Positions 1,648-21,962 of a stretch of 33,731 bases of DNA are shown here, piece after piece (position 1 is the first letter of the stretch; each line of letters begins with the position of its first letter). Below the pieces are notes generated by a model that was not told the origin of the DNA, searched no databases, and worked only from the letters and a program-made list of their open reading frames with translations. Source of the DNA: Blastocatellia bacterium (lineage in GTDB: Bacteria; Acidobacteriota; Blastocatellia; HR10; J050); assembly GCA_025054955.1 (NCBI GenBank), contig JANWZE010000005.1, positions 1 through 33,731 of the forward strand, read 5' to 3'. The translations under genes were made by a program, and so were the position numbers.

Positions 1648-1736
1648 CCCTCTTCGAGGGAAATCCGAAACCCCAAATCCAAAATCCGAAACGTTTGCGA
1701 TTTCGGATTTCGTGTTTCGGATTTCCCTCGAAGGGG
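1648..1736. repeat. Family A palindromic element, copy A3 (tadB-tadC gap)
   Basis: The cap CCCTCTTCGAGGG on the left and CCCTCGAAGGGG on the right enclose AAATCCGAAACCCC arms and a centre AAACGTTTGCG. It fills the gap between tadB (stop at 1745) and tadC (start at 1635), leaving 8 and 12 nt on either side. RNA from either strand could fold as a long hairpin. Confidence 0.9.
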
Positions 1737-2720: not shown

Positions 2721-2809
2721 CCCCTGCGGGCAAATCCGAAGCACGAAACCCGAAGTCCCAAACGTTTTGGATTTCGGATTTGGGACTGGTGGATTTTCCT
2801 CGAAGAGGG
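2721..2809. repeat. Family A palindromic element, copy A4
   Basis: The left cap is CCCCTGCGGG and the right cap CCTCGAAGAGGG, with AAATCCGAAGCACG arms and an AAACGTTTTGG centre. It starts 1 nt after the stop of the 142-residue gene and ends 13 nt before the tadB start, just outside the tadB ribosome-binding site. Confidence 0.9.
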
Positions 2810-4669: not shown

Positions 4670-4737
4670 CCCTCTTCGAGGGAAATCCGAAATCCCAAAT
4701 CCGAAACGTTTGGGATTTCGAATTTCGTGCTTCGGAT
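4670..4737. repeat. Family A palindromic element, copy A5, one cap missing
   Basis: The copy has a CCCTCTTCGAGGG cap, AAATCCGAAATCCC arm, AAACGTTTGGG centre and return arm, but lacks the second cap. The return arm ends at CTTCGGATTT, where the tadZ stop codon (TAA on the minus strand) begins. The element therefore abuts or slightly overlaps the stop codon and ends 13 nt before the tadA start. Confidence 0.88.
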
Positions 4738-5946
4738 TTACTCATTGGGGTTCCCCAGCACGCCGCCGAACAGATTAAAGCCCCATTTCTTGGGTTTGGC
4801 ATGGGCAGCCTCACGGCTCCGCCCGGTAAACTGACCAGCGAGATCAGAAAACTGCTTCACCAGCGGCGACTTCGGCTGCGAGACGACGAGCGGATGCCCC
4901 ATATTGATGGACGACAAGACCGAGCGGTGATCCTCGGCTAACACCGTTTCGATCTTCATCCCAAAGACCTCCTGCACTTTTTCAATCGGCACACCGTCGC
5001 GCTTGTCATAGCAGTTGACCACAACCTTGATCTTCTCTTCTGGAAACCCCATTTTGCGGAATACGTCCAGCACGCGCTTGGTGCAATAGACGGATGGCAC
5101 GTCAACGAGCGACACCAACAGGATCGTATCGGCCAGATCGAGCACCGTGACCGTGTTGACATCCAATGTGTGCTGACAGTCAACGACAACGTACGTGAAC
5201 TGACTCCGGAGCATGGTCACAATCCGTTGAACGTGAGCCGGCTGAACGTCGTCAGCCTCTTCTACGCGCAACGGAGCCGGCAAACAATAGAGGTTATCGC
5301 CGGTCCGCATGAGAAAGCTCTTGAGCAATTGCGCATCCAAGCGATCCTGGTTGCGCACAACGTCGGCGATGGTGTATTCCGGGTCTAGCCCAAAAAAGAG
5401 CGGCATCGCGCCGTACTGCAAATTGAGGTCCACCAACACGGTATTTTCCCGCGTCAGCCGCGCCATCTGCGACGCCAGGTTGACGGCCATCGTCGTCACA
5501 CCGGTGCCGCCACGGCTGCTGTAAATCGCAAAGACCCGCCCGGTGAGCACCTCCGACTCACTGCGGCTACGCATGGCGTCTATTTTGGTCAGTACTTCCT
5601 CGATCTCTTCCAGCTTCAATGGCTGTGGCAGAAAATCGGTTGCGCCTGAACGGTACGATTTGACGATCACGGACGAAGGGATATTCCCGCCTGTGCAGAT
5701 AACGGCTGTCGAAGGATGCTCCTCGCTGATTTGCCGGACCAAATCCAAGGCTTGATCGCTGTCTCCGTTAATGATGATCAGTGCGCTTTGCGGGTGAAAC
5801 TCTTCGACTAGCTCCGCGCCACGAGCCAGTTCAGAGCTCTCAGCGACCACGTGCACCTTGCCTGTCGAAAGCAGTTGCACACGGGCTTGGGCGCGTTCCT
5901 GGGGGTCCTTCCCCATGATGACGAACGATATGGGTGATGTCAGCAT
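4738..5946 (-). CDS. tadZ: TadZ/CpaE-like pilus localisation ATPase homologue
   Basis: This is a 402-residue protein with the two-part layout of CpaE/TadZ. An N-terminal receiver-like domain (about 1-120, SFVIMGKDPQERAQARVQLL) is joined to a MinD/ParA-like domain beginning at RVFAIYSSRGGTGVTTMAVN. TadZ proteins recruit the pilus machinery to a cell pole or focus. The P-loop is degenerate: SRGGTGVTT in place of KGGVGKTT lacks both conserved lysines, so ATP hydrolysis may be weak or absent. The C-terminus has Arg/Lys-rich and Phe/Gly-rich stretches. It lies downstream of the secretin gene, separated by a long hairpin, and upstream of tadA. The start at 5946 has GGGAGGG upstream. Confidence 0.9.
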   Translation of the reverse strand: MLTSPISFVIMGKDPQERAQARVQLLSTGKVHVVAESSELARGAELVEEFHPQSALIIINGDSDQALDLVRQISEEHPSTAVICTGGNIPSSVIVKSYRSGATDFLPQPLKLEEIEEVLTKIDAMRSRSESEVLTGRVFAIYSSRGGTGVTTMAVNLASQMARLTRENTVLVDLNLQYGAMPLFFGLDPEYTIADVVRNQDRLDAQLLKSFLMRTGDNLYCLPAPLRVEEADDVQPAHVQRIVTMLRSQFTYVVVDCQHTLDVNTVTVLDLADTILLVSLVDVPSVYCTKRVLDVFRKMGFPEEKIKVVVNCYDKRDGVPIEKVQEVFGMKIETVLAEDHRSVLSSINMGHPLVVSQPKSPLVKQFSDLAGQFTGRSREAAHAKPKKWGFNLFGGVLGNPNE

Positions 5947-6071: not shown

Positions 6072-7475
6072 TCATCGCTTCGGCGTGGCCGCCGGAATCT
6101 GATGACCAAACGAACCTTCCAGCCCCTGCGACGGTCGGGACTCGACGCCGGGCAACGGCGGAACCTCCGTCGGCTCCAGCGGCTTGACCAATCGTGGGGT
6201 GCACAAAAAGACCAACTCCGTCTCGTTTTTGAGATAAGACGAACTCTTAAACAACGAGCCAATGATCGGAATGTCGCCCAGCATGGGCACTTTGGAATCA
6301 ATCTTGGTCAGGTCGTTGGAGAGCAAACCGGCCAGCGCGAAGCTCTGGCCATCAGCCAATTCGATCGTCGTCGCAGCCTTGCGCACGATTAGCGCGGGGA
6401 TGCGAAAGCCCTCCAGTTGAAGCGCATTGACAAAATCGAGTTGACTGACTTCCGGAGCAAGCTGCAGGCGAATGCGATTGCCATCCACGATGGAAGGTGT
6501 GAAGCCCAATCGCACGCCAAATTCACGAAATTGAATGGCCACAGAGATGCCATTGGGTGTCGGCGTCACCACCGGATAAGGAAACTCGCCGCCGGCCAGG
6601 AAGCTGGCCTTCTCGCCGTTGACGGCGATGATGTTGGGCTCGGCCAGCGAACGAAACGCATTGCGCTGCTGTAAGGCGCGGATGATTGAGCCGACATTGG
6701 CAGCCGGATTGAAAATGCCCAGATTGACTGCATCCGACAATCCCAGGAATGGAAAACCGGATGGCAAAATGCCACTGGGCGAGTGAAATTGATTGGTACC
6801 CAAGTAACCGGGAAACCGCGGGTCAAAGAAACCATAGGACGCGCCCAGCTCACGCAACGCTCGCTTGTTCACCTCAGCCACACGAACCTGCAACAGAATC
6901 TGCGCCGGCTGGCCGCTGATGGCCACCTGTGTCAAATTGACCGGCTTCAGCCCGGAGGCTTCAAACAACGGCATCGCCGACTCAATGATCTTCGGCGAAC
7001 TGACCACGCCCGACAATACAATGCGATCACCGACTTGCTCGACCTTGATCTGCTCGTCCGGATACAAATTGCTCAGTTGCGCAACAATGGGTCGAATATC
7101 CGATTGAACGCGAACCGTCAGCGTCACAGGCTCCTCGGTATCCGGCGCATTGTTACTCCACACCACAACACTGGTCGTGCCGATTCCCTTGCCGTTGATC
7201 ACCACCTGATGGGTTGAGGCCACCACTGCCTCGGCAACCTTCGGCTCAGCAAACGAGACGCGGGACAGCGTCTGATCGAACTGAACGGTGACCGATTGAT
7301 TCACATACACATTGAGATTGATCGCGCGACCACGAGACTTGGCAAAGCTGACAAAGAGCGTGGCTGCGTCAGCCTCTGCCGACTGTGGTCGTAGGCTCGC
7401 ACTGCCGATCACGCTCAGCGTTACCAGCATCGAGAGAAGGCATTTGGTACTGAAGAATCCAGATGATTTCCACAT
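6072..7475 (-). CDS. cpaC: Tad pilus secretin (CpaC/RcpA family)
   Basis: This is a 467-residue outer-membrane secretin that forms the channel for the Flp pilus. A signal peptide (SMLVTLSVIGSASLRPQSAEADA) is followed by a pilus-assembly N-terminal domain (INLNVYVNQSVTVQFDQTLS), then a BON-like segment near YPDEQIKVEQVGDRIVLSGV. The secretin core includes VAEVNKRALRELGASYGF, GEFPYPV and TTIELADGQSFALAGLL. The last strand is ETELVFLCTPRLV. There are two in-frame ATGs, 7481 and 7475; 7475 places AGGAG 8 nt upstream and is preferred. It lies between cpaB and tadZ, as in other Tad operons. The upstream in-frame extension is repeat sequence. Confidence 0.93.
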   Translation of the reverse strand: MWKSSGFFSTKCLLSMLVTLSVIGSASLRPQSAEADAATLFVSFAKSRGRAINLNVYVNQSVTVQFDQTLSRVSFAEPKVAEAVVASTHQVVINGKGIGTTSVVVWSNNAPDTEEPVTLTVRVQSDIRPIVAQLSNLYPDEQIKVEQVGDRIVLSGVVSSPKIIESAMPLFEASGLKPVNLTQVAISGQPAQILLQVRVAEVNKRALRELGASYGFFDPRFPGYLGTNQFHSPSGILPSGFPFLGLSDAVNLGIFNPAANVGSIIRALQQRNAFRSLAEPNIIAVNGEKASFLAGGEFPYPVVTPTPNGISVAIQFREFGVRLGFTPSIVDGNRIRLQLAPEVSQLDFVNALQLEGFRIPALIVRKAATTIELADGQSFALAGLLSNDLTKIDSKVPMLGDIPIIGSLFKSSSYLKNETELVFLCTPRLVKPLEPTEVPPLPGVESRPSQGLEGSFGHQIPAATPKR

Positions 7476-7484
7476 ACGCATCAC

Positions 7485-7570
7485 TCCTGCGGAGAAATCC
7501 CAAGCGCGAAATCCGAAAACGTTTGGGATTTCGGATTTCCCTCGAAGAGGGCTGTTTCCCTCGAAGAGGG
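7485..7570. repeat. Family A palindromic element, copy A6 (cpaB-secretin gap)
   Basis: The left cap is a variant (TCCTGCGGAG), the centre GAAAACGTTTGGG, and the right side carries two CCCTCGAAGAGGG caps in tandem. It begins 2 nt after the cpaB stop and ends 9 nt before the secretin start. The left cap's GGAG (AGGAG on the minus strand is just outside) sits against the secretin ribosome-binding site. Confidence 0.87.
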
Positions 7571-8947: not shown

Positions 8948-9221
8948 CCCTGCATGAACGATCCTATGAATGACCATGTTGTGGCTCGTGCGGGCAGCCG
9001 TCCAAGCCCGAATCCACCAGAGACCCACTGCATTTGACGACACCACACACCACTGGTCACTTCCCACCAAATTCCTCATGCACTCTTTAATTTCTAAACC
9101 GACTCAACCGCCAATAATGTTTGGCTGCCTTTTCCACTGATCAGTTAGCAATCCGCGTACCAGCCCGCTCCAGTGGTCGCGCCGCAGATGGCGAGCCAAT
9201 GCATAACCAATGAAGACGATA

Positions 9222-10865: not shown

Positions 10866-11025
10866 CCCTGCGGGGAAATCCGAAATCCCAAGCCCTCTTC
10901 GAGGGAAATCCGAAGCACGAAATCCCAAATCCGAAACGTTTCGGATTTCGTGCTTCGGATTTCGGATTTCCCTCGAAGATGGTTTTCGAATTTCGGATTT
11001 GGGATTTCGGATTTCCCTATAGGGG
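10866..11025. repeat. Family A palindromic element, copy A7 (compound)
   Basis: A CCCTGCGGGG cap and short arm are joined to a second cap CCCTCTTCGAGGG. AAATCCGAAGCACG arms and the exact centre CCGAAACGTTTCGG follow, then a right cap CCCTCGAAGATGG, another arm and a third cap CCCTATAGGGG. It looks like one full element with extra half-units on either side. It lies in the divergent gap between flp and the toroid gene. Confidence 0.9.
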
Positions 11026-11068
11026 TACGGCATAGCAGTTGCATCCTTCAGTTAACCTGGTGTTGACC

Positions 11069-12085
11069 ATGAGACAACGTATTGACGCAGCGCGAACGTT
11101 TCTGCTTCAGGCACAGCAGCCAGATGGCGGCTGGCCGTATCGGATGAATGGGCAACCTTCGCCCGAACCCACCTGCTACAGCTTACTGGCCCTGATGGCG
11201 ACCAACCACGAACGCATGCACAAGCCAACGCTGCTGCAACAGAGGCTTGGCAGGGGCATGGGTTGGTTGCTGGCCAGACGCAACGCGGATGGAGCCTTGA
11301 CACTGCTCGGAGATAACGAACCACATTGGAGCACAGCGTTGTTTGTGGTGACGGCGCTACGTCTTCAATCAGCGCCCAGAACCCTCTTCGAGGGAAATCT
11401 GAAGCCCTCTTCGAGGGAAATCCGAAATCCCAAATCCGAAATCCAAAACGTTTCGGACTTGGGATTTCGTGCTTCGGATTTCCCCGCAGGGGCGCAGGGG
11501 CTGTTGCACCAGCAGAGCGTCCAGTGGCTGCTTTCCTGGTATGGCAACACATCGCCACCACGTGAGGTCGTGACATTGAACGGTCAACTGCGCGGCTGGC
11601 CGTGGATCAGCGATACATTCAGTTGGGTCGAACCAACCAGTTATGCCGTGTTGGCCCTGAAGCTGGCCGGTTACCGAACGCACTGGCGTGTCCGTGAGGC
11701 TGAAGAGCTGCTACTGGATCGAGCGTGTGAAGCAGGCGGGTGGAACTATGGCAATCGAATTGTCTTGGGACGAGGGCTAATGCCCTTCCCTGTGCCGACG
11801 GCCATGGCCGTGCTGGCGCTACAAGATGCTCCGTCGGCGCGCCAACGTGTCGAGCAGGCGCTAGCGTTTCTGCAACGCGAAGTCAGCCAGCATCCCTCAA
11901 CGCTCTCACTGGCATTGAGCATTCATTGCTTCCATATCTTCAACTGGCCCATGCAGGAGTTTGTCAACCGGCTGGCACAGCGACAAAGCGCCGACGGAAG
12001 CTGGCGGCAATCAGTCCATCTCACAGCATTGGCCACATTGGCGCTTCAGTGCGCCACAGGAGGATTCAATGCTTTCAAACTGTAA
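11069..12085 (+). CDS. Prenyltransferase/terpene-cyclase-like alpha/alpha-toroid protein with an in-frame repeat insertion
   Basis: This is a 338-residue protein with the repeats of the squalene cyclase/prenyltransferase fold. QW-like motifs are visible at QQPDGGWPYR near the N-terminus, RNADGALTLL, CEAGGWNYGN and QSADGSWRQS near the C-terminus. True cyclases are about twice as long and carry DXDD, which I do not see, so catalysis is unproven. About 39 residues in the middle (from TLFEGNLKPSSREIRNPKSE to FPAGAQG) are encoded by repeat A8 and interrupt the fold between two helices. ATG 11069 was chosen; a TTG at 11039 is the alternative. The stop overlaps the start of the DUF362 gene by 17 nt, so the two are coupled. 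Confidence 0.78.
   Translation: MRQRIDAARTFLLQAQQPDGGWPYRMNGQPSPEPTCYSLLALMATNHERMHKPTLLQQRLGRGMGWLLARRNADGALTLLGDNEPHWSTALFVVTALRLQSAPRTLFEGNLKPSSREIRNPKSEIQNVSDLGFRASDFPAGAQGLLHQQSVQWLLSWYGNTSPPREVVTLNGQLRGWPWISDTFSWVEPTSYAVLALKLAGYRTHWRVREAEELLLDRACEAGGWNYGNRIVLGRGLMPFPVPTAMAVLALQDAPSARQRVEQALAFLQREVSQHPSTLSLALSIHCFHIFNWPMQEFVNRLAQRQSADGSWRQSVHLTALATLALQCATGGFNAFKL
11382..11500. repeat. Family A element, copy A8, in frame inside the toroid gene
   Basis: Two successive CCCTCTTCGAGGG-capped starts precede AAATCCGAAATCCC arms and the centre AAACGTTTCGG. The right cap is CCCCGCAGGGG, followed by a GCAGGGG echo. It lies wholly inside the coding sequence and the reading frame stays open through it. 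The length is about 117 nt, a multiple of three. Confidence 0.9.
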
Positions 12086-13238
12086 GAACAACAAAACCGC
12101 AGAACCCTCTTCGAGGGAAATCCGAAATCCCAAATCCGAAATCCGAAACGTTTGGGATTTCGAATTTCGTGCTTCGGATTTCCCCGCAGGGGTTCGGGAT
12201 TTCCATCGAGGAGGGCAAAGAGGGGCTCTGACACGCCGAGGCTTCCTCGGCACAGTGGCTGCGGCGACGGGCGGGGTGGCGCTCGGCGGGTTGGGGCTTG
12301 CGTGGCAGAACCGGCGGCGTCAACCACCAGCCCGCGTCACTATTCTGAAAGCAACTTCCTACACGGATGATTTGAGCGATCTGATCCGTCGTGGCTTGCA
12401 ACACTATCCCCATGTGCTGCAGCGTGTGAAAGGTGGACGTGTTGTCCTGAAACCAAACATGGTCGAGTATTATGAAGCGCATCGCGTCAACACGAATCCA
12501 CTGGTGGTCGCAGCGGCGATTGACGCCTTCCGCGCCGCCGGCGCCGGTCAGGTCATCGTGGCCGAAGGACCTGGTCACCGGCGCGACACCGAAGCGCTGC
12601 TGGAACAAACCGGGTTGGATGAAGTTCTCATACACGAGAAAGCGCCGTTCGTTGATCTCAATCACGATTCGATCCACCCTGTCCCGCTCTCGGTCAATTA
12701 CACCAAATTGGGGCGGCTGTTTCTGCCCGCTACAATTCTCGGTGCCGACCTCGTGGTCTCTATGCCGAAGCTGAAAACTCATCACTGGGCTGGCTTCACG
12801 CTCTCGCTCAAGAATATGTTCGGCGTCGTTCCGGGCGTCAAATACGGTTGGCCGAAGAACCTGCTGCATTGGCGCGGCATTCACGAGAGCGTTGTTGACA
12901 TCAACCTGACAGTGCAACCTGGATTCGCCATTATTGACGGCATTGAAGGGATGGAAGGCGATGGCCCGCTGTTTGGCGAGACGGTGCACGCCGGCGTCCT
13001 CATCATGGGAGACAACCTAGCTGCTGTGGACGCGACCGGCGCTCGCGTCATGGGACTCTACCCCGAACACGTGCCCTACATGCAAATGATCACGCAGCAT
13101 GGCGGCACGGTTCACGAAAGTCGCATTGAACAATGTGGCGAACCGATTGCCGCTGTTCGCCAAGATTTCAGCGTGGTGGATTACTTGGCCATTCTCAAGC
13201 AACCACCGCCGCTGATGGCCTCCATCAAGGGCCTGTAG
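12069..13238 (+). CDS. Tat-exported DUF362 domain protein with repeat-encoded N-terminal extension
   Basis: This is a 389-residue protein. ATG 12069 has AGGAGG 5 nt upstream and overlaps the toroid gene. Residues 1-13 are unique. Residues 14-50 or so come from repeat A9. The twin-arginine motif TRRGFLGTVAAATGG begins at about residue 55, so the exported signal starts unusually far from the initiator. The mature region matches DUF362: VVLKPNMVEYYE, VIVAEGPGHRRDTEALLEQT, VSMPKLKTHHWAGFTLSLKN, and FAIIDGIEGMEGDGP. DUF362 proteins are of unknown reaction; some carry iron-sulfur clusters, but no four-Cys ferredoxin motif is visible here. A folded-export route suggests a cofactor. A later start inside the repeat cannot be excluded. 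Confidence 0.82.
   Translation: MLSNCKNNKTAEPSSREIRNPKSEIRNVWDFEFRASDFPAGVRDFHRGGQRGALTRRGFLGTVAAATGGVALGGLGLAWQNRRRQPPARVTILKATSYTDDLSDLIRRGLQHYPHVLQRVKGGRVVLKPNMVEYYEAHRVNTNPLVVAAAIDAFRAAGAGQVIVAEGPGHRRDTEALLEQTGLDEVLIHEKAPFVDLNHDSIHPVPLSVNYTKLGRLFLPATILGADLVVSMPKLKTHHWAGFTLSLKNMFGVVPGVKYGWPKNLLHWRGIHESVVDINLTVQPGFAIIDGIEGMEGDGPLFGETVHAGVLIMGDNLAAVDATGARVMGLYPEHVPYMQMITQHGGTVHESRIEQCGEPIAAVRQDFSVVDYLAILKQPPPLMASIKGL
12105..12215. repeat. Family A element, copy A9, in frame at the start of the DUF362 gene
   Basis: The cap CCCTCTTCGAGGG, AAATCCGAAATCCC arms, centre AAACGTTTGGG and right cap CCCCGCAGGGG are followed by a decayed second cap (CATCGAGGAGGG). It starts 20 nt after the toroid stop and lies between the DUF362 start codon and its Tat motif, with the frame open. 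Confidence 0.9.
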
Positions 13239-16097: not shown

Positions 16098-16132
16098 TTC
16101 AACTTACGGCCCACGAGCTAGGAGCCACGGTC
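16086..16132. repeat. Family B repeat, copy B3
   Basis: The segment runs CGTGATCCGTAATTCAACTT, then GGCCCACGAGC and GAGCCACGGTCAC. This is a decayed version of the B2 arrangement (ATC-CGTGAT words, then a CCACGAGCCACGG block). It lies between two converging genes and overlaps the last codons of the propeller gene. Confidence 0.55.
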
Positions 16133-17849
16133 ACCTCTGAGCCGACGAGCGCAGCCGGGCGGTCACGTCGAAAAACTTGTAGAGATGCTGATGATCTACG
16201 AAGGCGTAGCTCCGGTCTGGCAACTGAGGTAATGTCGCACCAAAGTAGGCACTGAGCACCACGCGGAATGAGTTGACCGGCGTGATCTCAGGATAAAGCG
16301 CGTTAGCCCTGTTCGTGGGAAATCCGAAATCCGGAGCACGAAATCCGAAACGCTTCGGATTTCGGATTTGGGGTTTCGGATTTTTCCCCGTGGCGTCTAC
16401 GTCGGGCAGATAATACGCATTGAGAATGCCCATCTTTTCTCGCAGTTCCTCATCAGTCGCTTTGGTCCAATCGAATGTCGCTTCTTGACGCTCATATCGC
16501 AGTGGAAAGGGACCTTCGTCGGCTTGCAGGATGATGATCGGCGGTGTCTCTGAACGTGACAGAAGTTGATCCACCAGTTGCTGCAGCAGGTGATTGGTAT
16601 AGGCTAGTTGTTCTGTGTAATTTTGCGTGCGCGTCCGCGCAGCCACTTCGCTTAATGAGAGAAAGCGACCATCGCGAGCAAAAACATAAGGAGGATGAGG
16701 CACTAAAAAATGAGCAAACACAAACGTGGGTTGTTTGATAGCTGGCACGTCAGCAAGGCGCGCGAATTGATAGCGCGTCCGTCGCCACTGCTCAGATCGT
16801 TCATCGAGCACACCTGTCTTGACACTGAACGGATAGAAGAGCGTCATTTGATACAAGACGCGCGAAAATTCCGGGAGCGAATAGAGGTTGATATTGACAT
16901 CAGCGTGTGGATTCTCGCTTGTCGGATGCCACCAGCTTCCTACGTGAATGAACTGATAGCCCTTTGCTTTGAAAAAGCGCCACAGCTTGTAATCGCGCAC
17001 TCGCTGATAGAGCGGCGTCCAATCATTGGATTGGTCGCCGTATTGCTCGCGAACATCATCTAGAAACATCATATTCAACGAGGAGGCCAGCGAGTGAGCT
17101 GTCTTGGGATAATTCGATCGAGCCTGCGCAACGACATAAAACCCGCGCTGCTCCAGCCACGATAAAAACGGACGATTGTCAAACCCGTATGCCTCGCGCA
17201 ACACATCGGCGCTGGCGTAGCGATCCAGAATGATGTAGTAGACATCGGGCAGTGCAGGTTGATCAGCAGGCGTCCTGGCCGATGAGGTTGATTGTTGCTC
17301 TGCCGGCAAGCGCGAAATGGTTAATTCGGGTTCCACCTTAGCCCACGCGCTGATGCCCTTCCCTTCAGCAGCCGGACGAGCCGCGCGCGCCGTCACGCTA
17401 TAACTGATGATGCTCAGCAGCGGCATCAGTACAAGAGCGCCGGCCACCAGATTAAACAGTGAGGTGAACTGCTCAGCGCGTGCTTTCGTGCGTGTGATCC
17501 ACCACGCGACGCCGATAAACGGGATCACCCATATCGCCATGTAGCGAAATGTGACGTTGAGCAACGGACTGACCGACCACAACACTTGCGCCAGATCAAA
17601 CGTCGGGCCATAGGCGATAATCATGATCCAGACGACCGACGCCCACAGGCCCGCCTTGTGCCGTTCGTTCATCAACCATCGGAAGCTTCGCTCCAGCAGG
17701 AACACAAACCCGCCGGCCACTAACATCGGCAGCAACAGTTGATCCAGACCGACGCGCCCTAGGTTGCTCGAATACAACGAGAGCACCGGGAAGAATGCCA
17801 GCAAAAACGGATGAACCACCGGCGACCCCTTGGACTTTTGAGCGGTCAT
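16131..17849 (-). CDS. Sulfatase-like (alkaline phosphatase superfamily) membrane protein with in-frame repeat insertion
   Basis: This is a 572-residue protein with five or six N-terminal membrane helices (VVHPFLLAFFPVLSLYSSN onward) and an extracytoplasmic alkaline-phosphatase-type domain. Motifs are DVYYIILDRYASADVLREAY, NYPKTAHSLASSLNM (likely Thr nucleophile region), FVFAHFLVPHPPYVF and IIILQADEGPFP. The sulfatase-like family includes phosphoglycerol and phosphoethanolamine transferases, and substrate is unknown. Near residue 500 about 29 residues (GKNPKPQIRNPKRFGFRAPD... to FPTNRAN) come from repeat A10. The paralogue at 20152 has only two residues between VD and ALYP there. ATG 17849 lies 13 nt after the methyltransferase stop; a TTG at 17885 is the alternative. 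Confidence 0.85.
   Translation of the reverse strand: MTAQKSKGSPVVHPFLLAFFPVLSLYSSNLGRVGLDQLLLPMLVAGGFVFLLERSFRWLMNERHKAGLWASVVWIMIIAYGPTFDLAQVLWSVSPLLNVTFRYMAIWVIPFIGVAWWITRTKARAEQFTSLFNLVAGALVLMPLLSIISYSVTARAARPAAEGKGISAWAKVEPELTISRLPAEQQSTSSARTPADQPALPDVYYIILDRYASADVLREAYGFDNRPFLSWLEQRGFYVVAQARSNYPKTAHSLASSLNMMFLDDVREQYGDQSNDWTPLYQRVRDYKLWRFFKAKGYQFIHVGSWWHPTSENPHADVNINLYSLPEFSRVLYQMTLFYPFSVKTGVLDERSEQWRRTRYQFARLADVPAIKQPTFVFAHFLVPHPPYVFARDGRFLSLSEVAARTRTQNYTEQLAYTNHLLQQLVDQLLSRSETPPIIILQADEGPFPLRYERQEATFDWTKATDEELREKMGILNAYYLPDVDATGKNPKPQIRNPKRFGFRAPDFGFPTNRANALYPEITPVNSFRVVLSAYFGATLPQLPDRSYAFVDHQHLYKFFDVTARLRSSAQR
16307..16392. repeat. Family A element, copy A10, in frame inside a sulfatase-like gene
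   Basis: Decayed caps (CCCTGTTCGTGGG and CCCCGTGG) enclose AAATCCGAAATCCGGAGCAC arms and a centre GAAACGCTTCGG. The frame is open throughout. Net extra length relative to the paralogue is 29 codons (87 nt), close to the element's own length. Confidence 0.9.
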
Positions 17850-19721: not shown

Positions 19722-20131
19722 CCCTCTTCGAGGGAAACCCCAAATCCGAATATCGAAATCCGAAGGCCCTCTTCGAGGGAAATCCCAAATCCGAATATCG
19801 AAATCCGAAAACTCTCTTCGAGCGAAATCCGAAGCCCTCTTCGAGGGAAATCCCAAATCCGAATATCGAAACCCGAAGCCCTCTTCGAAGGGAAATTCCA
19901 AGCACGAAATCCGAAATTCGAAACGTTTCGGAGTTCGTGCTTCGAATTTCGGATTTCCCCGCAGGGGCTTGGGGTTTCGTGCTTCGGATTTCCCCGCAGG
20001 GGTCGCAGGGGCTTCGGCACGCCGGTTGCTCATCTCCCAACGCGCCAGCAGGGAAATCCCGAGCACGCCAGTCCGAAATCCTAAACGTTTCGGGTTTCGG
20101 ATTTGGGGTTTCGGATTTCCCTCGAAGAGGG
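19722..20131. repeat. Family A element array, copy A11
   Basis: A 410-nt array holds five or more partial units. Each begins with CCCTCTTCGAGGG or a variant and continues AAATCCCAAATCCGAATATC. One centre CCGAAACGTTTCGG, two CCCCGCAGGGG caps, a divergent unit (CCAGCAGGGAAATCCCGAGC) and a final CCCTCGAAGAGGG cap follow. At least five of six frames are open across about 19,720-20,020. It lies between divergent units and ends 20 nt before the second sulfatase-like gene. Confidence 0.92.
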
Positions 20132-20151: not shown

Positions 20152-21756
20152 ATGGAACAACCGCGCAACTCACATCTAGACCATCATCACCAAGACAATC
20201 GAGCGGCGAAGCCGACCCGCGTGATTCATCCATTCTTGTTCGCCATCTTCCCGACGCTGGCCCTCTTTGCCCACAATACCGGCCAGACATTCCTTGGCGA
20301 AATCCTTTGGCCAATGGTCGTCTCGTTCGTCTTTGCCGCGGCGCTTCTGGCAATCACCCAACGAACGCTGCGAGATTCTCACCGAGCGGGCATTGTTGTC
20401 TCTATCTTCCTCGCTCTTGTGTTTAGCTACGGGCATCTGGTGCAAGCCATTCAATGGCGGATCGGCGCTCTGACGATCACGCCGGGCTATCTTTTGTTGG
20501 TCATTCCGGCTATCGTGGCGCTACTGGCCGCGGTGCGCGCGCGCCGATCGCTTGAGCCTTTCACCCGTATCCTCAACGTGACGGCCATCGCGCTCGTGAT
20601 GATGCCGCTGCTGAACATCGTTGCCGCCGACTTGCGCCCCGCCACGGCGCAGCAGCCAGAGCTCACCAGCGAACTTGTTGATCGGCCCGCGTTCTCCTCA
20701 ACCGGCTCCGCCTCAAGCTCGGACGCTCTCCCCGACATCTACTACATCGTCTTCGACCGCTACGCGCGCGCCGACACGCTCAAAGAGTTTTATGGATTCG
20801 ACAATAGCCAATTCCTAAACGGCCTGGTGCAACGGGGTTTTTATGTCGCCAGCCAAAGCCGCGCCAATTACCTGAACACAGCGCAATCACTTCCCTGCTC
20901 GCTCAACATGAGGCACATCACCGACCTGAGCCAAACCGTCGGAGAAAACTCTGACGATATGAAGCCGCTCTACGCCATGTTGCAGGATTACACCGTGTGG
21001 CGCTTCCTCAAGGCGCGAGGCTACCAGTTCATTCACCTGGGAAGCTGGTGGCAACCGACGCGCCACAATAAGCACGCCGACCGCAACATCAACCTCTACA
21101 GCCTACCGGAATTTTCCCAGATTCTCTATCAAACTACCCTGCTCTATCCGCTCGGATTGAAATTCGGCATCTGCGATAAGAACCGCGAACAATGGAAGCG
21201 CGTCCTTTACAAGTTTGACCAACTTGCCAACATCCCGGCGATGTCGCAACCGAAATTTGTGTTTGCCCATTTTCTGCTACCCCACGATCCGTACGTGTTC
21301 GACCAGGACGGCCGCTTCGTCACACCGGAGGATGCGCGCAGCAAAAGTCGCCGGGAGCTCTATGTCAACCAATTGGTCTTCACCAATCGCAAAGCGATCG
21401 AGGCAATTGATCACATCCTGACACGTTCAGCCAGGCCGCCGATCATTGTTGTACAAGCCGACGAGGGACCATTTCCATTGAACCGGCCACAAGAAGAGTA
21501 CCAATCCCCGACATTCGACTGGCGGACGCTCACACGCGCTGAGTGGAACCAGAAAATGCGCATTCTGAACGCCTACCATTTGCCCGGTGTTGACTCATCC
21601 GCATTGTATCCATCCATTACACCGGTTAACTCATTTCGGCTCATCTTCAACATCTATTTCCAGACGAAGTTCGAGCTGCTGCCTGATGAGAGCTATGCGT
21701 TTGTGGACGCGCGGCACATCTACAAGTTCTTCAACGTCACCAAAGAAGTTGACTGA
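20152..21756 (+). CDS. Sulfatase-like (alkaline phosphatase superfamily) membrane protein, paralogue without insertion
   Basis: This is a 534-residue paralogue of the gene at 16131-17849. It has N-terminal membrane helices (VIHPFLFAIFPTLALFAHNT onward) and a periplasmic catalytic domain. Shared motifs are DIYYIVFDRYARADTLKEFY, NYLNTAQSLPCSLNM, FVFAHFLLPHDPYVF, IIVVQADEGPFPLN and the end HIYKFFNVT. The canonical metal ligand DHG is DEG in both copies. At the site of repeat A10 this copy reads GVDSSALYPSITPVNSF, giving the empty-site form. ATG 20152 has GAGG about 10 nt upstream; ATG 20134 is possible and would use the GAGGG of the repeat cap as its ribosome-binding site. Confidence 0.87.
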   Translation: MEQPRNSHLDHHHQDNRAAKPTRVIHPFLFAIFPTLALFAHNTGQTFLGEILWPMVVSFVFAAALLAITQRTLRDSHRAGIVVSIFLALVFSYGHLVQAIQWRIGALTITPGYLLLVIPAIVALLAAVRARRSLEPFTRILNVTAIALVMMPLLNIVAADLRPATAQQPELTSELVDRPAFSSTGSASSSDALPDIYYIVFDRYARADTLKEFYGFDNSQFLNGLVQRGFYVASQSRANYLNTAQSLPCSLNMRHITDLSQTVGENSDDMKPLYAMLQDYTVWRFLKARGYQFIHLGSWWQPTRHNKHADRNINLYSLPEFSQILYQTTLLYPLGLKFGICDKNREQWKRVLYKFDQLANIPAMSQPKFVFAHFLLPHDPYVFDQDGRFVTPEDARSKSRRELYVNQLVFTNRKAIEAIDHILTRSARPPIIVVQADEGPFPLNRPQEEYQSPTFDWRTLTRAEWNQKMRILNAYHLPGVDSSALYPSITPVNSFRLIFNIYFQTKFELLPDESYAFVDARHIYKFFNVTKEVD

Positions 21757-21844: not shown

Positions 21845-21962
21845 CCCCTGCGGGGAAATCCAAAATCCCAAGCCCTCTTCGAGGGAAACCCGAAATCCGA
21901 ATATCGAAATCCCAAACGTTTCGGATTTGGGATTTCGTGCTTGGGATTTCCCTCGAAGAGGG
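21845..21962. repeat. Family A palindromic element, copy A12
   Basis: The CCCCTGCGGGG cap and a short arm, a second CCCTCTTCGAGGG cap, AATATCGAAATCCC, the centre AAACGTTTCGG, and a right cap CCCTCGAAGAGGG. It occupies the middle of the 359-nt gap between the sulfatase-like and nucleotidyltransferase genes. It is the last family A element in the window. Confidence 0.9.

Follow-up and report, generated by a model that had tools for sequence, protein, structure and literature searches.

In-frame capture of selfish palindromes by genes is best known from Rickettsia and from a few REP-rich genomes. Rickettsia palindromic elements (RPEs) are described as in-frame palindromes that are tolerated in unrelated genes (Ogata et al. 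2000, 2002, as cited in PMC10969869). They are often intragenic (nearly half are in R. conorii; PMC10969869), and RPE-4 and RPE-6 match CGTC-tagged repeat families (PMC3733652). REPs and REP dimers (BIMEs) of the GTAG and CGTC families are mostly intergenic; some lie in open reading frames, where they account for 20-30 residues and dimers are favoured, and REPs are occasionally clustered, as is GTAG-23 of T. roseum (PMC3733652). Enterobacterial RU repeats also occur in frame in genes (PMC2759123).

A clear case can now be placed beside these from another class, apparently Blastocatellia of the Acidobacteriota (judging by the relatives of the genome). The window, that is, the whole stretch of 33,731 nucleotides that was analysed (contig C5), carries copies of a palindromic repeat, here called family A, and two genes for sulfatase-like proteins, one of which is interrupted by a family A copy (Table 1). 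The preferred reading of this interruption, to which we assign a probability of about 0.9 on the strength of sequence comparison, is that an ~88-nt dispersed palindrome was copied in frame into a functional-looking gene, adding 29 residues as a near-neutral loop and keeping the frame.

Table 1. Family A copies and associated genes in the window
Feature	Position	Strand	Evidence
Membrane-anchored sulfatase/alkaline-phosphatase superfamily protein, host of the insert	16131..17849	-	Pfam PF00884, AlphaFold2, Foldseek
Family A palindrome inside the gene, ~87-90 nt, arms degenerate at the ends; adds TGKNPKPQIRNPKRFGFRAPDFGFPTNRA	16305..16394	-	Gap vs paralogue and 83 homologues, alignment, folding
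Paralogue without insert	20152..21756	+	BLASTP, Pfam
Array of full and half family A copies upstream of paralogue	19722..20131	+	Family A search
Family A copy of 90 nt, near-perfect, downstream of paralogue	21873..21962	-	Family A search
Near-consensus intergenic family A copy	10893..10982	+	Family A search
Second family A copy lying inside a gene, in frame with terpene-cyclase-like ORF 11039-12085 (+)	11405..11491	-	
Family A copy, intergenic or extending ORF 11961-13238 at its N-terminus	12105..12192	-	
Family A copy at contig end overlapping contig C134	54..140	-	
Intergenic family A copy	1648..1736	-	Profile search
Family A copy at start of ORF 1745-2761	2722..2809	+	Profile search
Family A copy touching stop codon of ORF 4738-5946	4670..4741	-	
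Shortened family A copy at 5' end of secretin ORF	7488..7551	+	

The products of the interrupted gene (572 residues) and of its paralogue (534 residues) both match Pfam Sulfatase. BLASTP aligns them at 45% identity with a gap of 29 residues (87 nt) that falls exactly at the family A copy, the host reading VDAT...RANALYPEITPVNSF and the paralogue VDSS, the gap and then ALYPSITPVNSF. This bears out what the first-pass annotation had read from the sequence, namely 29 extra residues at the repeat in one gene and their absence from the other. Its spacing of 3 kb needs correction: the genes are 2.3 kb apart and the insertion sites about 5.2 kb. It had also presented the pair as the filled and empty states of one site; the insert is indeed absent from the paralogue, but a literal before-and-after comparison it is not, since the two genes had parted long before the repeat arrived. 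The paralogue is now too distant to stand for the pre-insertion state and is by itself weak evidence, and for the same reason the pair does not reveal the precise sequence that was targeted.

Because two paralogues cannot separate gain from loss, homologues were gathered: 80 loci from a collection of species genomes (Chloroflexi, Patescibacteria, KSB1, Actinomycetota, Acidobacteria, archaea and others), two from a genome of the same class, and the window paralogue. Length was scored between the motifs ILNAYYLP.. and ..YPxITPVNSF. All 83 have 2-6 residues at the insertion site (4 in 70 of them), as against 33 in the host protein, which marks the 29-residue stretch as a derived, in-frame gain. 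The first-pass annotation had named orthologues free of family A elements yet carrying the same 29 residues as what would refute it; no homologue examined has them. The opposite polarity (an ancestral stretch, lost by the paralogue and resembling family A by chance) drew its appeal from there being a single pair to compare at first sight; it is refuted by the uniformly short homologues and has, besides, to contend with the fit of the insert DNA to a dispersed repeat over ~88 nt, so that its chance of being right is practically nil.

The insert reads ACG GGG AAA AAT CCG ... AGG GCT on the minus strand at about 16305-16391. The copy itself starts at about 16305/16307 and ends at 16391-16396; its earlier placement at 16307-16392 is right, give or take a few nucleotides, the left arm being degenerate and blending into GAC GCC codons. 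As had been proposed from the 87 nt of extra length, it is a member of the family: at 88 nt it can be aligned over its full length with 26 other copies (mean column identity 86%), and a DNA search matches it to the dispersed repeat at 90% identity over 77 nt (E 2e-23). It folds far better than shuffled sequence (z of -3.6 as RNA, -3.9 as DNA).

The family A consensus is a 90-nt palindrome with ends CCCTCTTCGAGGG or CCCCTGCGGGG and centre AAACGTTT, between which lie heptamer-like units (GAAATCC, GAAGCAC); copies measure 86-90 nt. In the window at 574-668, family A ends enclose a different interior built of GTCCGTGGACCGTGG and ATCACGGATCACG units, which suggests that interiors are interchangeable between the same ends. 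Searched with a profile, the fetched contigs yield 106 matches or fragments in 86 clusters on 11 contigs, mostly on C5, C38, C43, C102 and C134, with few copies on C65, C98, C117, C130, C40 and C47. The search finds none on 20 control contigs, one of which (C4) is masked and reads N. A genome-wide DNA search points to the same contigs. With the census defined by the fetched contigs together with genome-wide searches in which part of the first-look candidates were scored, family A amounts to ~80-100 copies in one chromosomal region, most of them intergenic. Signs of a structured RNA are scarce: there is no Rfam match in the window, the covariation term for family A is -0.01 with double changes at 1 of 23 pairs, and no link to tRNA was found.

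Overlaps between contig ends place the dense contigs next to one another, in three or more linked groups. Four pairs (C5-C134, C38-C65, C43-C98 and C102-C117) share terminal stretches of exactly 141 nt, and C43 and C102 overlap over 508 nt at 93%. All of the dense contigs probably belong to a single chromosomal neighbourhood. The window carries parA-parB, and its ParB is most similar (59-60%) to those of the two genomes of the same family, from which it follows that the window belongs to this genome. That element-rich contigs might contaminate the bin was considered and is rejected for the window on the basis of this kinship and of tetranucleotide profiles like those of the rest. Near-duplicates of 96-97% are also seen (C65:1-508 with C134:16479-16991, and C134:21884-22061 with C102:5489-5666); these terminate at an element or begin within one, beyond which the sequences differ, and they represent either joins made in assembly at contig ends or genuine rearrangements among copies.

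Possibly chimeric joins at elements, at C65:1-508 with C134 and where the end of C134 meets the bchD linker of C102, raise the question whether the interrupted gene is itself an artefact, the assembler having jumped through a repeat and fused two unrelated loci. This is very hard to credit at 16131-17849, where the sequences on either side of the element form a single gene that stays in frame and is collinear with the homologues. Moreover, the exact 141-nt overlaps imply an assembler setting of k=141, which is longer than the element, so that its junctions would have been bridged.

An AlphaFold2 model of the host protein built with 43 sequences has a mean pLDDT of 87.7 and a pTM of 0.87, and Foldseek places it closest to EptA/MCR-type phosphoethanolamine transferases and sulfatases. 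The first-pass annotation had asked whether the insert falls in a surface loop. The insert is modelled as disordered: confidence is high just before it (pLDDT 98 for residues 471-480), drops to ~44 over residues 489-513 and recovers from about residue 521 (block mean 96). The insert thus most likely forms, as modelled, a disordered loop at the surface of an enzyme that is otherwise intact, and the peptide itself has no evident function. Near the presumed metal site, both window paralogues have DEG; most of the family has DHG.

It is also unlikely that the host gene is a decaying pseudogene whose interruption would be uninformative about tolerance. A paralogue close by could relieve selection, and the host protein (P0001) departs from the family at 5 of 68 highly conserved positions, compared with 2 of 68 for the paralogue (P0002). 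The gene is nonetheless open over 572 codons, folds confidently in prediction, and retains the invariant columns of the family and 63 of the 68 positions conserved to 90% or more, the five changes being mild. Both flanks of the insert are in frame with a good coding signal, the best among the 86 hit clusters, in agreement with the original reading that the frame was kept.

Tolerance of the frame may owe something to the composition of the repeat. The consensus length is a multiple of three, without a stop in any of the six frames, and 43 of 74 long copies are open in all six; long copies average 0.8 stops, compared with 7.8 after shuffling, although the 74 amount to roughly one observation because they share ancestry. 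A random palindrome with this composition would be free of stops with a probability of 0.014, one built from shuffled GAAATCC heptamers with a probability of 0.35. The stop-free property is permissive and may be accidental; it is not strong evidence of selection.

Other genes in the neighbourhood carry in-frame copies as well. At the place of the second intragenic copy in the window, an orthologue of the terpene-cyclase-like protein (G049:C67), with one open frame, is ~33 residues shorter; matches of this ORF to cyclase domains are weak. On C102 a copy lies in BchH-N (at 9216), where the loop of relatives is shorter and variable, and another in BchH-C (6752-6881), where six relatives (57-60% identity) are shorter by ~24-26 residues. 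A BchI/D-like protein has a copy in a hypervariable linker. By codon score, the sulfatase, BchH-C and BchH-N copies rank first among the 86 clusters. Two further candidates at contig-end joins, P0006 (ctaA, at the end of C134) and P0007 (at the start of C65), were dropped, and N-terminal 'insertions' (for example in 11961-13238, C102:43669 and C134:20280) are left out of the count, as the true start codon may lie downstream.

The setting on C102 (L065:4218-10658) is a set of bacteriochlorophyll genes among repeats, comprising the BchI/D-like gene and a bchH split into two ORFs with the C-terminal half first. BchH-N is matched by some 50 genomes of the same class; among genomes of the same family and order BchH has no match, the lone same-order match (in G005) being the repeat itself.

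About 5-7 of the 86 clusters look intragenic, while 85% of the sequence in the six densest contigs lies within ORFs; family A is therefore strongly depleted from genes. Insertions into genes are usually removed, and the survivors sit in tolerant loops. This depletion weighs against the view that the elements are selected coding modules, a lexicon existing for the sake of its peptides, with the added loop altering the behaviour of the enzyme. The stop-free 90-nt consensus and the number of host proteins, magnesium-chelatase subunits among them, lend this view some colour, but the inserts lie in loops that are variable or modelled with low confidence, and at least two different frames are used, which leaves it highly improbable.

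On the preferred reading of in-frame copying, a non-autonomous repeat of the REP/MITE sort would have been copied into the sulfatase-like gene, probably through whatever process also produced the ~80-100 copies of the neighbourhood. The frame would have been kept by the near absence of stops in any frame together with a net gain that is a multiple of three, and a length-tolerant surface loop as the site would have made the change nearly neutral and allowed it to survive. Regional clustering and nested arrays (as upstream of the paralogue) point to a local copying process, which might be template switching, gene conversion, or a HUH or other transposase acting in trans. Candidate target-site duplications are seen at 13 of 74 copies, no excess over random intervals (31%), though decay of old copies could hide one. 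With neither such an excess nor a linked transposase, transposition as the mode of insertion is something that we infer. GTAG is near 5 of 148 ends of family A (or 8 of 147 arms) and CGTC near 1 of 148 (background 3.4%); the genome has two Y1_Tnp (PF01797) genes, and no family A copy lies in their loci. An origin from RAYT/GTAG-REPs or CGTC-REPs, which was considered, is thus unsupported. A broader proposal, to which only an outside chance is given, is that the element spreads solely by a local process, confined to a ~200 kb neighbourhood with parAB and the bacteriochlorophyll cluster, its stop-free lexicon repeatedly lengthening proteins, both magnesium-chelatase H halves included.

The three isolated copies on C130, C40 and C47 are of a longer variant, with common outer ends GCGCACGCCCTGCCCC ... 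TTGCAAGGGCGC that they share with a copy from a different family within the order (G005:C24:16646, L022); the lineage of the element, by this sequence likeness, is probably older than its burst in this region. A genome of the same class (G085; L177, L183 and L185) has many arrays of GGATTTCGGATTTCGG with the same lexicon (791 first-look candidates), and the family A palindrome was not found in the loci read there. A candidate WWE3 contig has a weakly similar palindrome (L113:2206-2313) just downstream of its own sulfatase homologue. The exact family A core was not found in viral contigs.

Compared with described systems, family A resembles RPEs in being a palindrome found in frame in unrelated genes (the sulfatase, both halves of BchH and the terpene-cyclase-like gene). 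It differs in that few of its ~86 clusters are intragenic, in belonging to another phylum, and in being regional where RPEs are genome-wide; the two are set apart here by their descriptions. The CGTC tag of the families matched by RPE-4 and RPE-6 is all but missing from its ends. With REPs and BIMEs it shares a mostly intergenic distribution, with some copies inside ORFs and with clustering, which in REPs is occasional; unlike GTAG and CGTC REPs, it has no tags and is absent from the vicinity of the Y1-transposase genes. Its non-autonomous size class, inverted symmetry and intragenic fusions are those of MITEs and of RU/ERIC repeats (PMC10969869; PMC2759123), but MITE-like target-site duplication or a linked transposase was not detected. 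No earlier description was found in the open-access literature searched, though one may exist elsewhere. The 83 homologue controls and the further host genes make the case usable for studying how proteins gain loops, and the regional confinement of the repeat is a separate, testable oddity bearing on how such repeats move. Family A is a real new family, and the phenomenon itself is rare but known: it works like RPEs and intragenic REPs, yet is without the tags, duplications and transposase association by which it was tested for kinship with the described families.
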